Source: Pelagibacteraceae bacterium AG-464-P07 (lineage in GTDB: Bacteria; Pseudomonadota; Alphaproteobacteria; Pelagibacterales; Pelagibacteraceae). From it: 64,000 bases of DNA. The notes beneath the pieces are model-generated. The model ran no database searches. It worked only from the letters and a program-made list of their open reading frames with translations, and was not told where the DNA came from. Within the stretch, counting starts at the first letter, position 1, and the number at the start of each line of letters is the position of its first letter. Shown piece by piece: positions 2,235 to 7,079 of the stretch. Where the stretch lies: assembly GCA_003211695.1 (NCBI GenBank), contig QCSA01000003.1, forward strand, positions 1 through 64,000, given 5' to 3'. The translations under genes and the position numbers were made by a program.

Positions 2235-2310
2235 GGCCAGGTAGCTCAGTTGGTAGAGCAGAGCCCTGAAAAGGCTTGTGTCGGCGGTTCGATTCCGTCC
2301 CTGGCCACCA
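2235..2310 (+). tRNA. tRNA-Phe (GAA), CCA encoded
   Basis: GGCCAGG...CCTGGCC acceptor stem, D/T arms, anticodon loop CTGAAAA; 5 nt after infA. Confidence 0.95.
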
Positions 2311-2761
2311 CGTCCTGAGCCACTTATTTAAATTTGGAATAGATAATACGACCGACTTCGGCACAAATCCGACACACTCAGAATAGTTTTTTCATTTATC
2401 CCGCCTCAGGTTTCCCTTTCTTAACTGCGACAAAATTTCCAAAAAATATTTTTCAAACCTAGAATCCCAACACGATTTGAACACAATCGATGACTACTTA
2501 GACATCGCATGCGTTTTAAATTATTTTATACTTTTATATTTTGCTATTGGCTTATTTTGCTTGCAGGGCCGTTTATTAATTAAATTCTTGCTATGCGAAC
2601 TGCATTTTTAATCTCTGGATCACTTACCGTTGTACTCTTAACAGTGGCTATAAGTTTATCATAAAATTTTTCATAAATTTATTCTAACATATTTCTCGAC
2701 TCATTTTTGACCACTCAGAGATGAATTATTTATTTTGTTAAATTTAAATGTTAGGTTTTAT

Positions 2762-2802
2762 AGGGGTAAAGTAGCAAGGTCCAAGGAGCCAGAGCCCTGA
2801 AA
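2762..2802 (+). repeat. Truncated tRNA-Phe-like repeat, copy A
   Basis: aggggtaaagtagcaaggtccaaggagccagagccctgaaa; matches 3856-3896 with one mismatch; ends inside the anticodon loop sequence. Confidence 0.85.
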
Positions 2803-2808
2803 GTTTTT

Positions 2809-3696
2809 TCATGAATGTTTTTTAATTTTTTTATAATTAATTCGCGTCCATATCCGTGGATACATATCTGTGCCTAGGCAATCACCAGGCTTCAGTCCTT
2901 TTTCTATCATTTCGACACTATGATCAGGATCCATGCCATAATCACGAAATTTGATTCTAATATCATCGCCTGCCCACTTGGTTGTAAAGACTCGTAGCTC
3001 ACAATCATCGTCCAATTTTCCAGAACCTCCATGCATAGTACGACCGTTGAAAGCAATACAATCACCTGGTTGTATATCCCAACTTACGACGCCAAAACGT
3101 TCAGGGTCAGCATTTATATTTGGAAGTTCTTGTTCAGCAATGTCAGAAAAATCAACTTGATCAACATTTTTTTTTCCTACAGGATTAAGATCTCCAAAAT
3201 TGTACTGTTTAAAAACAGTTTTCCATCGGTGTGAACCTGGCACAAATGATAGCGAACTTTTTTTTTTAACAGGCACTAAAGGCATCCAAATTGAACAAGC
3301 ATCATAACCCTCAACTGACCAATAAGGTTCATCTTGATGCCATGGAGTTTCAAACTGAGTTCCAGTAGATCGAACAAATACTGAATCAAAAAAAAAGTTG
3401 ATAGTTGCTGAGCCCATCAAACGACCACAGATCTTAGCAGCTGGTGAATTAAAAATGAACTTTTTGTACTCATCAATATTTTGCCAGGCTGTGTGGTCAT
3501 AAAACATAGAACGTCCTGAAGTATCCTTATACCATATACGCGAACGTCTTGTGGGTGTTTTAATATTAGTATCAATTCCTTTATTTAAAAGTTCAATCCA
3601 ATCCTTGTCAAACATACCCGATAACAACAAAACGCCGTCACGGTGATAAGTTTCAACTTCATCAGGGGTGATTGTTCGTAATAAGCCAGAGTTCAT
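2809..3696 (-). CDS. Phytanoyl-CoA dioxygenase (PhyH) family protein, putative Fe(II)/2OG oxygenase
   Basis: ORF 295 aa; TPWHQDEPYW (HxD), RTMHGGSG distal His region. Confidence 0.85.
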   Translation of the reverse strand: MNSGLLRTITPDEVETYHRDGVLLLSGMFDKDWIELLNKGIDTNIKTPTRRSRIWYKDTSGRSMFYDHTAWQNIDEYKKFIFNSPAAKICGRLMGSATINFFFDSVFVRSTGTQFETPWHQDEPYWSVEGYDACSIWMPLVPVKKKSSLSFVPGSHRWKTVFKQYNFGDLNPVGKKNVDQVDFSDIAEQELPNINADPERFGVVSWDIQPGDCIAFNGRTMHGGSGKLDDDCELRVFTTKWAGDDIRIKFRDYGMDPDHSVEMIEKGLKPGDCLGTDMYPRIWTRINYKKIKKHS

Positions 3697-3732
3697 ATTA
3701 TTTTATTTTTCAATACTAATCTTCAGTTTAAC

Positions 3733-3762
3733 CCAGAACCAAGATCCCTAAAAGTTTTTTCA
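3733..3762 (+). repeat. Short direct repeat flanking the PhyH gene
   Basis: ccagaaccaagatccctaaaagttttttca; 3746-3762 matches 2795-2811 (ccctgaaagttttttca) with one mismatch. Confidence 0.6.
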
Positions 3763-3858
3763 CTGAGTCCAGCATACTATAGAATTTCTGGACTCACTAT
3801 GATCACAGTGAGATCGATTTTTTTAACGTTCAGAAATTAAAAAGCTAGATTTAGCAGG

Positions 3859-3933
3859 GGCAAAGTAGCAAGGTCCAAGGAGCCAGAGCCCTGAAAAGGC
3901 TTGTGTCGGCGGTTCGATTCCGTCCCTGGCTAC
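3859..3933 (+). pseudogene. tRNA-Phe pseudogene: intact anticodon and T arms, degraded D arm and 5' acceptor strand
   Basis: 3885-3930 is identical to 2260-2305 of the intact tRNA-Phe (46 bp); 5' half aligns only loosely. Confidence 0.85.
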
Positions 3934-4048
3934 CTTATTTTACACTGTGTTGCTAATCAATCCACTTTTTCCTAATACAATCAAACTCAAATAGTATTCT
4001 TCTTGAAATATTTAATTTGAAAAGTTTTAAGTTAAAAATTGAAAGTTT

Positions 4049-5083
4049 TTATCTTAAAAATCGTGGTAACCTTTTCGCGAAAGTATTTAATAAAGAACCT
4101 CGATCGGTGCTACCTTGTCTATATTTTTTGATGATTCGGTCTTCCCAATTTAGTTTATCAGAATTTGGTACACGATCATCACGGTCCATTATCTCAAGTA
4201 CCTGTCGCATTCCTTCTTCCAACGATATGCGTGGCTGAAACTCTGGTACATCACTGAATAGCTTCTCGGCACTATAATATAAGTTATGCGAAAAGACATC
4301 ACGGCAGATATCAAACGCTGGCACCTTCAATCGTTCCAAGTCCGCGTAGGGTACTCCGATGAGATCTACTTTCTTCCCAATTACTTTCATCGCTGCATTG
4401 TGATATTCAGCCCAGGTACAATATTTGCGGTTGACCATGTTATAGACCTTTCCTATACATTGTTTTTTTCCAAGTACACCAGAAAAAGCCAATGCAGCAT
4501 CATCGACGTGCATGAACTGGTGTTTTGCATTGCCATCGCCACAGACTAAAATCGGTTTACCTTTCCGAATACGATCAATCCATGAAAAATCCCATGCTAT
4601 TTGACGCAATAGACCCCATTGTGGTCCATAAGTTGTCGAGGGTTTGATAATTGTCACTGGAAATCCATATTGTTTGTGAGCATCCATGAGTACTGCATCT
4701 GCTTTAGCTTTGTTTTGTCCGTAATCGGTGGTTGGGCGCAATGGATGATCTTCGGTGGTTGGAAACCAATCATACTGAACACCGTAAGTACAGACTGTAG
4801 AACACATCACAAACTGTTGCACATTACGGAATGCGCGAATACTACTCGAAGCTTGGTTGGCGTTCATACAAACCATGTCAATTGCGATATCAAATGATTC
4901 ATCTTGCATTGCTTTTTCAAACACTTCTTGATCGTTACGGTCGCCAATGATAGTGCGGGCTCCATCAGGGACTGAGCCACTTTGTCCGCGATTAAAGCAA
5001 AATACCTCATGCTTTTGTTCTAGCAAACGCATGACGATGCTTGTACCAATATTACCGTTACCACCAATAACACAAATTTTCAT
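4049..5083 (-). CDS. NAD-dependent epimerase/dehydratase (extended SDR)
   Basis: Start taken at MKICVIGGNGNIGTS, internal to ORF 4049..5149; GxxGxxG, YGQNK (YxxxK), STTYGPQWG. Confidence 0.85.
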   Translation of the reverse strand: MKICVIGGNGNIGTSIVMRLLEQKHEVFCFNRGQSGSVPDGARTIIGDRNDQEVFEKAMQDESFDIAIDMVCMNANQASSSIRAFRNVQQFVMCSTVCTYGVQYDWFPTTEDHPLRPTTDYGQNKAKADAVLMDAHKQYGFPVTIIKPSTTYGPQWGLLRQIAWDFSWIDRIRKGKPILVCGDGNAKHQFMHVDDAALAFSGVLGKKQCIGKVYNMVNRKYCTWAEYHNAAMKVIGKKVDLIGVPYADLERLKVPAFDICRDVFSHNLYYSAEKLFSDVPEFQPRISLEEGMRQVLEIMDRDDRVPNSDKLNWEDRIIKKYRQGSTDRGSLLNTFAKRLPRFLR

Positions 5084-5093
5084 GGTGATTACC

Positions 5094-6224
5094 TCATACC
5101 TTTTCAGCGATTTCCACGTGGTGCGTTGTTTGACTCTTGACTGCCGCATCTACCAATGCCTGTGTATTCAAAGCTTCAGCATAATCTGACCGAATGTATC
5201 CACGGTTACCAGTATCTATAGCCTTTAACCAAGCGTCAACTTTATTCAGGCCTAACTTATTCTGATTTGGAAAATTTTCATTGACCTTCTTGCCGTCAAT
5301 TATTCCACGGATCGTCTGATCTGTTGCGTTTGCTTTTAGCCGTAAATGTGGTCCTATCAATTCAAGATCAACATAGAACCTTTCGTGTCCACAGTGGTTT
5401 GTATGTACGCCGATTATTCCATTATCGAGTTCATACATCAGTTGCACTGCGTTCTCGGCATCGAATTCAGTTTGTTCAGTTGACATGTTTTTGATACCAA
5501 TTGCAGCTGCTCGCGTGGGTTTGGGATTACCGAGTACAAAACGTACGCAATCAAGTAAATGAATCGCTTGATCAGTTATCGGACCACCACTAATTTTTTT
5601 TTGTAGGTACCAGGGGGAAAAGGGCATCTGGGAATCAGCAGGATAAATACGAATGGCAAATACAGTTCGTGCCATGTGCACATCGTGCCCTTCAATCAAC
5701 TGTTTCAGTCGTTCATATCGTGGTTCATAACGCAACTGAAACCCAACTGCGGCCATTATACCAGATTTCTTAATTGCGGCCAAACACTCACGACCTTCAA
5801 TGAGATTATACGCCGGCGGTTTTTCTATCAACAGGTGTATTTTCTTTTTACAAGCGCGATCGATCGGTTCTATACGAACTGATGGTATTGTACATAACAG
5901 CAACCCGTCCATCGGTACTTCAAACAATTTGTTAAACTCAGTTGTTGCAATTGCTCCTTTACGTTTAGCAGCTAACTTTTCAGCTGCTTCGAGCTGAATA
6001 TCATGAACAGCAACAATCTTGGCACCAGCACGTTCTGCGAGAGCAGTCAGCTCGGTCCCCATTTTGCCTGCACCAATTACACCAATCCGAAGAATTTTAT
6101 ATTTTATGGTAAATGTTTTTGCAGCTTTTCTTTTTTTACGTTTTCTTCTTATTCTTCTAACATTAAGTAAAATACCACCCGTTATAAGAAATATGACAAA
6201 GGCAACAGTAACTATAACGTTCAT
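5094..6224 (-). CDS. Gfo/Idh/MocA family oxidoreductase with predicted N-terminal membrane anchor
   Basis: ORF 376 aa; hydrophobic N-terminus plus basic stretch, then RIGVIGAGKMG and LIEKPPA (EKP). Confidence 0.85.
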   Translation of the reverse strand: MNVIVTVAFVIFLITGGILLNVRRIRRKRKKRKAAKTFTIKYKILRIGVIGAGKMGTELTALAERAGAKIVAVHDIQLEAAEKLAAKRKGAIATTEFNKLFEVPMDGLLLCTIPSVRIEPIDRACKKKIHLLIEKPPAYNLIEGRECLAAIKKSGIMAAVGFQLRYEPRYERLKQLIEGHDVHMARTVFAIRIYPADSQMPFSPWYLQKKISGGPITDQAIHLLDCVRFVLGNPKPTRAAAIGIKNMSTEQTEFDAENAVQLMYELDNGIIGVHTNHCGHERFYVDLELIGPHLRLKANATDQTIRGIIDGKKVNENFPNQNKLGLNKVDAWLKAIDTGNRGYIRSDYAEALNTQALVDAAVKSQTTHHVEIAEKV

Positions 6225-6659
6225 AAGAAATCTTTTCTACTAATCTTATACCAAACTTTTAGGAGAGTCAGCTTATGTATTCCTTATTAAATTGGAGTTG
6301 ATTTGTTTAGAAATTTTTAAAATTTTTTGATATTAAGTACTTAAATTTTTAAAATGTTTTTCACCTAAATGGCTATCTCGATTAATAAATTTAAACCTTA
6401 TAGCAGAAACTTTAAATACAAGGACTGGGATTGGACTCACTGAAACTTTCAAATTCAGAATCTGTTTTGGTACCTCTGTTGAACCCGACTACAAGCATGA
6501 GTGGAAAATGTGGACTCAGTAAAAAAATTAAACTGTACGTTTAGACTCATTTTGGACTCAGTGGTCACACTGAAAACTTGATGTGGATTCCTGTTTATGA
6601 TTCTATATCTTATATAAACTAGGATTGAATTACTTAGGTTTATAGAAGAAAGACATGCT

Positions 6660-6734
6660 GGAATTAGTAGTCAGTCGGTAGAGCAGAGTCCTGAAGAGGC
6701 TGTGCCAGTGGTATGGTTCTGTTTTAGACTACCA
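6660..6734 (+). pseudogene. Degenerate full-length tRNA-Phe copy
   Basis: ggaattagtagtcagtcggtagagcagagtcctgaagaggctgtgcc...gactacca aligns end to end with tRNA-Phe but acceptor and T stems no longer pair. Confidence 0.7.
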
Positions 6735-6815
6735 CACTTTATCTTAAAAATCGTTTAATACTTTAGATTTCAATTCAATTAACTTGACATATCTTATTAA
6801 ATCAATTTAAAGGGG

Positions 6816-6840
6816 AGTTGTTGTAAGTTTTGCAACAACT
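6816..6840 (+). promoter_or_regulatory. 5'-UTR hairpin upstream of the cold-shock gene
   Basis: agttgttg-taagttttg-caacaact perfect 8-bp stem; TTGACA (-35-like) at 6784-6789. Confidence 0.5.
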
Positions 6841-6869
6841 AAGTTAAACTATAATAAGGTAAAGTAGAA

Positions 6870-7079
6870 ATGAGTCTAAAAGGAAAAGTAAAATGGTTCA
6901 ATGGAACAAAAGGTTATGGTTTCATTGAAAGAGAAGATAAAGAAAAAGATGTGTTTGTTCATTCATCTGCAGTTCGTGATGCTGGCTTGAAGTATCTAAA
7001 TGAAGGTGATGAATTAACGTTTGAAGTTGAGAATACGGACAAAGGTCCTTCCGCAGTAAATCTGCAAAAAACTTCTTAA
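6870..7079 (+). CDS. cspA: Cold-shock protein
   Basis: ORF 69 aa; [19 protein letters not shown]...DVFVHSSAV. Confidence 0.95.

Follow-up and report, generated by a model that had tools for sequence, protein, structure and literature searches.

Phage satellites and other elements integrated at tRNA genes are the closest described counterparts of the locus reported here. Excision of the phage-inducible chromosomal minimalist islands (PICMIs) has been described as needing satellite-encoded integrases (PMC10803314). The sections of PMC10872708 available to us give tycheposons a size of 4-200 kb and a tyrosine recombinase, and virion-encapsidated integrative mobile elements (VEIMEs) are named in the available text of PMC10803314 and PMC11389934. 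The same portion of PMC11389934, a review of helper-dependent elements, covers clusters of attC sites lacking integron-integrases (CALINs) and miniature inverted-repeat transposable elements (MITEs) and does not mention integrase-less satellites. SAR11 bacteria are among the most abundant cells on Earth and have very small genomes in which prophages and integrases are rare, which raises the question of how they gain genes. We analyzed a window of 64,000 nucleotides at the start of a contig (QCSA01000003.1, here C3) of Pelagibacteraceae bacterium AG-464-P07, a SAR11-type draft genome (handle G000; 1.14 Mb, 83% complete), using a comparison set of 397 family genomes (drafts 55-100% complete; handles with G, C and L stand for genomes, contigs and loci). 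Between an intact tRNA-Phe gene and cspA, this window contains a 4.4-kb stack of two to three elements that probably descend from phage satellites, have lost the integrase gene and could be moved in trans by a cognate enzyme. A first-pass annotation had described the interval as a cargo system accreting at tRNA-Phe, possibly mobilized in trans, and had seen no recombinase. Both statements are supported, mobilization in trans as a probable reading: cargo was variable, the tRNA-derived junctions were conserved, empty sites and a candidate helper integrase class were found, and no recombinase or integrase is encoded in 2310-6870. Primase and small terminase genes are likewise missing from the window elements.

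ARAGORN confirmed the intact tRNA-Phe at 2235-2310. The further tRNA-Phe copies of which the island had been said to be built are mostly attR modules of integrated elements. Alignment of the window copies (A1, A2 and A3) with those of G000:C7, G004 and G149 revealed a single module, composed of an arm, a separate conserved sequence (attX) and a tRNA-Phe 3' part, which is present three times behind tRNA-Phe at the far ends of cargo blocks; the PhyH gene lies between A1 and A2, and the epimerase and Gfo/Idh genes lie between A2 and A3. When a tyrosine integrase uses a tRNA gene, the common outcome is an intact tRNA and, distally, an end of the element at which its own arm is joined to the displaced tRNA 3' part. 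We assign A2 as attR because it has this usual pattern, an intact tRNA with an arm joined to the displaced 3' part, the copied part at 3884-3934 beginning on the 5' side of the anticodon stem. ARAGORN nonetheless calls a tRNA-Phe at 3859-3934; this near full-length appearance is due to attX, which merely resembles the 5' half of a tRNA (∼11 of 19 positions like the D-arm, by eye). The copies are attachment-site (attR-type) modules and not true duplications of the 5' half. Only the 3' part (51 nt, 98% identity) of a pseudogene previously placed at 3856-3933 is therefore tRNA sequence, its 5' part being attX, and a truncated copy reported at 2762-2802 exists as attX plus a tRNA-type core fused to a different sequence, not as half a tRNA. 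The degenerate copy at 6660-6734 was correctly recognized and is the only one with the look of a tRNA 5' half, contrary to the earlier view that at least two copies reach that far. It belongs to A3, a badly decayed version of the same module and the oldest of the three.

Matches to the complete module at G000:C7, G004:C23 and G149 had 86-88% identity with E values of 1e-29 to 1e-65, a recurrence that argues against chance. The tRNA-Phe module is restricted to three of the 397 genomes, namely the window's own (at two places), G004 and G149. At the second place in the window's genome, G000:C7 (L032:5982-6680), the attR module is followed by a cspA paralogue and then by an incomplete tRNA-Phe 5' part that runs into TTTTTTCAT; the arrangement looks as if a circular tRNA-Phe/cspA segment had entered between acs and tsaD after opening at the anticodon.

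Comparison of the interval from infA-tRNA-Phe to cspA across relatives, which had been proposed as a check, gave the expected variation. In G004 (SCGC AAA288-G21, a deep-water SAR11 single cell and a member of the same genus), the module ends a 1.6-kb block with different cargo, and the same epimerase and Gfo/Idh genes come next. About ten sister-genus genomes possess an empty site, with merely 100-240 bp from tRNA-Phe to cspA. In other relatives, unrelated genes fill 0.4 to 7 kb at this position and no attR is recognizable; the locus is therefore a general hotspot, and the element type explains only part of its cargo. A scan of the genome contig collection returned SCGC AAA288-G21 as its sole match. 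In that genome (L034:6570-7700), cspA and tRNA-His are inverted beside a hisS fragment fused to contig-end sequence, probably a chimera of whole-genome amplification and not biology.

The system reaches beyond what the first-pass annotation covered, to tRNA-Met, tRNA-Arg and cassette arrays elsewhere in the genome. A nearly full-length tRNA-Met(cat) attR module (arm, attX and tRNA 3' part) was found in about 20 of the 397 genomes, representing five genera. Arms were recognizable in 18 of 19 tRNA-Met intervals examined, where they delimit elements of 0.49-3.25 kb that extend from the intact tRNA-Met, or from a 3' copy upstream, to a copy starting at tRNA position 26 or 27. The layout is that seen at tRNA-Phe: intact tRNA, paired 8-mers with an 11-bp period, cargo, arms, attX and tRNA positions 26-77. 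No integrase open reading frame (ORF) was present in any of the 18 elements (the search did not extend to integrase pseudogene fragments too short for the ORF cut-off), nor was a primase or terminase. Tandem pairs occur at several loci (G011, G073 and G096), and the cargo includes a type I methylase-specificity gene pair, an Mrr-type restriction nuclease, an EEP-type nuclease, a trypsin-like protease and secreted proteins. The 2.9-kb integrase-less element L254 (G139:C16, 2162-5108) carries a compact type I methylase and specificity gene, with no separate restriction-subunit ORF listed between its arms. The tRNA-Arg(tct) locus of G002 has two arms in tandem and a truncated copy that breaks off in the anticodon loop.

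The paired 8-mers with 11-bp spacing are found on both ends of the tRNA-Met elements. The best period-11 match averaged 7.5 of 8 positions on the left and 7.4 of 8 on the right versus 4.4 in shuffled sequences, and every other period from 8 to 15 gave at most 5.7. Among 19 arm sets (the 18 elements, related ones included, plus a satellite in G079), left and right sites were more alike within than between elements (permutation p of 0.0001 for all 19 sets and 0.028 for seven distinct ones). In most tRNA-Met elements and in the G079 satellite, a distance of 46-47 nt separates the left pair from the tRNA. Phage lambda integrase uses five arm-type sites, which the two left and three right sites observed here may recall by analogy.

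The arms lead to phage satellites as the likely origin and helper. Among the matches listed, 80 viral contigs that have the tRNA-Met 3' part were read, and in one of them, L327, an integrase gene stands directly behind the arm TTGACGCTCGTATGACGCCG. Over 20 bp, this arm has the same sequence as the left arm of the integrase-less element in G139 (0 expected by chance), and the L327-type integrase was found in 12 of the 397 genomes. The satellite in G079 reads, in order, tRNA-Met, an integrase 76% identical to that of L327, small ORFs, an AAA_25 primase-helicase, a Terminase_2 small subunit, arms, attX and the tRNA 3' part; it is directly followed by a 1.3-kb integrase-less element with the same TGACACA sites and the same layout, which the satellite might still be able to mobilize. 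By gene content, G079-type elements are phage-inducible chromosomal island (PICI)-like satellites. Integrases are encoded in G079, G191, G116 and other satellites, and a short repeat pair precedes the integrase start in those of G117, G191, G086, G116, G247 and G240. The left arm of the window, CGGCACAAATCCGACACACTCAGAA, equals the G117 integrase leader but for one mismatch (24/25; 0 expected by chance), and G004 retains the AAGGAT that comes next. GAGGTG, at the position of the satellite integrase ribosome-binding sequence, is kept in 5 of the 19 integrase-less tRNA-Met intervals (P of 0.001 each). Given the matching arms and the kept GAGGTG, the elements look like satellites in which everything between the arms has been replaced. 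The satellites of G117, G240 and G010 (L408, L407 and L412) seem to be arranged in reverse of G079, with the tRNA 5' part duplicated beside the integrase and the intact tRNA on the opposite side.

We therefore favor a scheme, drawn from sequence comparison, in which two or three small elements would have integrated in tandem at tRNA-Phe, each keeping the attachment machinery of a satellite integrase (anticodon stem-loop core, arm-type sites and attX) while cargo fills the rest. The arms and core may be recognized by a cognate tyrosine integrase that a co-resident PICI-like satellite or phage provides, and this enzyme would excise and insert the element. Every new insertion would restore tRNA-Phe and displace older elements toward cspA, giving rise to stacks. 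The sites are present and they match; mobilization of the integrase-less elements in trans is what we infer from them.

The cargo has junctions of its own. The short repeat noted at 3733-3762 is real and is not derived from tRNA-Phe; it is a separate, dispersed cassette-junction repeat of 24-37 bp, of which three of five genus members hold 15-18 copies at ≤3 mismatches (reversed-pattern control, 0). The copies sit in same-orientation arrays with unrelated genes between them, and repeat-bounded segments recur in other genomes and loci with their ends falling on the repeat. The PhyH cassette of the window is also found between junction repeats in G004:C16, as a whole 940-bp segment at 84% identity, and an RNA helicase block is present in three genomes at 97% with differing left neighbors. 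At 2788, the PhyH block joins a tRNA-Phe-type core instead of the junction repeat (AGAGCCCTGAAA next to GTTTTTTCA), with only about 9 bp common to the two partners; this hybrid indicates that cassettes and tRNA-type sites were joined. We infer that cargo cassettes were exchanged at the repeat (3739-3762), by some enzyme or by homologous recombination. A lipase and ABC transporter block lies between junction repeats in two genera at 70% identity (L083:294-4096 and L133:2600-6396), and several cassette arrays end in a conserved small 75-aa gene (MNKENASKLWKIIQEAGDYL...) with island-specific iterated 9-mers (L133:6497-6724 and L141:8775-9002). An integron reading of the repeat, ATGAAAAARCTTTTAGGGATCTTGGTTCTGGGTTTG, was set aside since inspection revealed no RYYYAAC/GTTRRRY core pair.

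Several other explanations were weighed. The junction repeat often codes for a signal-peptide start (MKKLLGILVLG) and occurs 1-4 times in many other SAR11 genomes, so it might be nothing more than this conserved start, and the arrays ordinary operons for secreted proteins. In agreement with that idea, 24 of 52 ATG-bearing copies start an ORF open for at least 30 codons; the other 28 open leader ORFs that reach a stop before 30 codons, and the repeat has fixed rare codons (CTG in 42/52 versus 3% of Leu codons, GGG in 46/52 versus 7% and ATC in 48/52 versus 10%). The early stops and fixed rare codons imply that the repeat is kept as DNA or has spread recently, and, with unrelated cassettes beginning and ending at it in different loci, they led us to reject the plain-operon reading, to which we assign hardly any probability. 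It is also quite improbable that the interval is a recombination hotspot without site-specific movement, where homologous recombination at the conserved flanks and at the 24-37 bp repeats would swap cargo after natural DNA uptake. The repeats are long enough to aid RecA, copies within one array look homogenized, and the relatives with attR-less cargo between tRNA-Phe and cspA fit such a process, which nevertheless leaves unexplained the exact attR copies from tRNA position 26, the arm pairs at fixed distance and the hybrid junction with its short common stretch. A more serious alternative, still unlikely in our judgment, is that the elements are dead relics that integrated with their own integrase, lost it by deletion and no longer move in trans, later cargo changes reflecting deletion and ordinary recombination. 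The integrase ribosome-binding sequence that has outlived its gene, the degenerate arms of the window and the decay of A3 are all as this predicts. It accords poorly with the near-perfect paired arms on both sides of 18 tRNA-Met elements that have no recognizable integrase ORF (fragments below the cut-off aside), with the excess of genomes bearing such elements over those bearing the L327-type integrase, and with near-identical arms enclosing very different cargo.

Several observations count against movable, integrase-less satellite derivatives as the explanation for the window. No integrase-bearing element was found at tRNA-Phe, the L327 integrase family was not found in the window's genus, and excision or a circular form was not observed. 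The window arms are degenerate (period-11 P of 0.10-0.40 for the left arm, A1 and A2, with 0.10 for the left arm), so the stack may now be immobile, and its left and right arm sequences differ. As the drafts are 55-100% complete, an integrase encoded at another place in a genome may escape notice. A search for a tRNA-Phe-targeting integrase, also suggested by the first-pass annotation, was successful only insofar as it pointed to the candidate helper class at tRNA-Met; Phage_integrase matches in the 83% complete genome of the window were limited to a core Xer-like gene on a different contig. In the viral collection, neither attX nor the junction repeat, the arm scaffolds or the 3' part of the host tRNA-Phe had a match, and the tRNA-Met 3' part alone led to L327. 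When phage records were searched with the tRNA-Met 3' part, the matches listed were only unrelated phage tRNAs, and a related-locus search with the L327 integrase gave only the self match. Sister-genus integrases at tRNA-Lys, -Cys and -Ser had no tRNA-Met or tRNA-Phe arm sequences there. The Xer-like recombinase (G000:C10, 318 aa) was rejected as the mobilizer: its presence in 38 of 81 relatives and 13 of 17 genera marks a housekeeping gene, and nothing ties its site to the repeats, although a role as accomplice is conceivable. This tyrosine recombinase (L001:1459-2415) is single and conserved across the SAR11 family (54-87%) and is a candidate for the sole chromosome-dimer resolvase.

More tentatively, and with some doubt on our part, these elements may form a third tier of parasites in SAR11: integrase-less mini-elements (∼0.5 kb minimum) that are reduced to the arm and core sites of phage-satellite integrases, have diversified these sites to follow different helpers, and exchange promoter-less cassettes via the signal-peptide-coding junction repeat, an integron-like shuffling from tRNA attachment sites. 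Elements of this kind would offer a low-cost route of gene gain, in which one to few cargo genes (restriction-modification, nuclease, secreted proteins or dioxygenase) travel with DNA sites only and a borrowed satellite integrase, and since the arm sites are specific to each element, they predict the integrase by which it would be moved. If this is true, integrase counts miss much of the mobile DNA in streamlined genomes.

Table 1. Positions of the features between tRNA-Phe and cspA in the window.
Feature	Position	Strand	Basis
tRNA-Phe (GAA), intact, integration target	2235..2310	+	ARAGORN; cspA ~100 bp downstream in empty-site relatives
Left arm: paired 8-mers TCGGCACA / CCGACACA, 11-bp period, then CTCAGAA	2359..2383	+	24/25 match to G117 satellite, directly before integrase start
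Left junction, TAG followed by TTTTTTCATTTATCCCGCC..., common to window and G000:C7	2384..2415	+	33-nt match, 97%
Module A1: arm, attX and tRNA-Phe-type core (AGAGCCCTGAAA)	2690..2802	+	Alignment with A2, C7, G004 and G149 copies
Hybrid junction: tRNA-type core AGAGCCCTGAAA fused to cassette end GTTTTTTCA	2788..2811	+	Comparison with the G004:C16 homologue of the cassette, where the junction repeat is normal
PhyH-family dioxygenase gene, cargo cassette	2809..3696	-	Pfam PF05721, 1.5e-20
Junction repeat (24-mer CCAAGATCCCTAAAAGTTTTTTCA at 3739-3762)	3726..3762	+	16 copies in the window's genome at ≤3 mismatches, control 0
Module A2, arm and attX	3763..3883	+	86% to G000:C7 and G004:C23 copies
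tRNA-Phe 3' part, attR (of module A2, 3763-3934)	3884..3934	+	98% to tRNA positions 25-75, 51 nt
NAD-dependent epimerase gene, cargo	4049..5149	-	PF01370, 1.7e-31; 83% in G004
Gfo/Idh/MocA oxidoreductase gene, cargo	5094..6224	-	PF01408, 8.9e-15; 74% in G004
Module A3: degenerate arm and tRNA-Phe-like attachment site (tRNA-like part 6660-6734)	~6540..6734	+	Alignment; period-11 pair P 0.019
cspA, conserved right flank	6870..7079	+	PF00313

PICI-like satellites, PICMIs, VEIMEs and tycheposons are already known, and the integrase-less derivatives are the variant part. We found no description of phage satellites in SAR11 in the literature searched; SAR11 examples in the original tycheposon and VEIME papers are possible. 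The SAR11 relatives found in G079, G191, G227 and G010 have, like PICI-like satellites and the Vibrio PICMIs (PMC10803314), a specific chromosomal site, a tyrosine integrase, a primase and a compact size, with a small terminase in several. The window and the 18 tRNA-Met elements share with PICI-like satellites the site-specific tRNA attachment with arm-type sites (attL/attR and arms) and are without their integrase, primase and terminase. Like tycheposons and VEIMEs, the elements are tRNA-bounded and cargo-carrying and reside in marine streamlined hosts, and tRNA-Met is one of the tycheposon tRNAs named in the portion of PMC10872708 available to us. The tycheposon label suggested earlier does not apply: judged by that portion, elements below 4 kb (0.49-3.25 kb at tRNA-Met) that have no recombinase fall outside the description, and the kin by sequence are PICI-like satellites. 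The additive flexible islands of Methylophilaceae, as presented there, likewise have recurring tRNA-end copies along an additive island at tRNA genes; these are 20-bp repeats of tRNA-Lys, and the same text describes no arms, attX or helper (PMC10872708). CALINs and MITEs, in the available part of PMC11389934, are also helper-dependent, with sites kept and the enzyme lost. The sites here are tRNA anticodon-loop att and arm sites, not attC sites or transposon ends, and there is no integron integrase; the junction-repeat arrays nonetheless behave like cassettes, and as in CALINs, unrelated cassettes in the same orientation share a common site.

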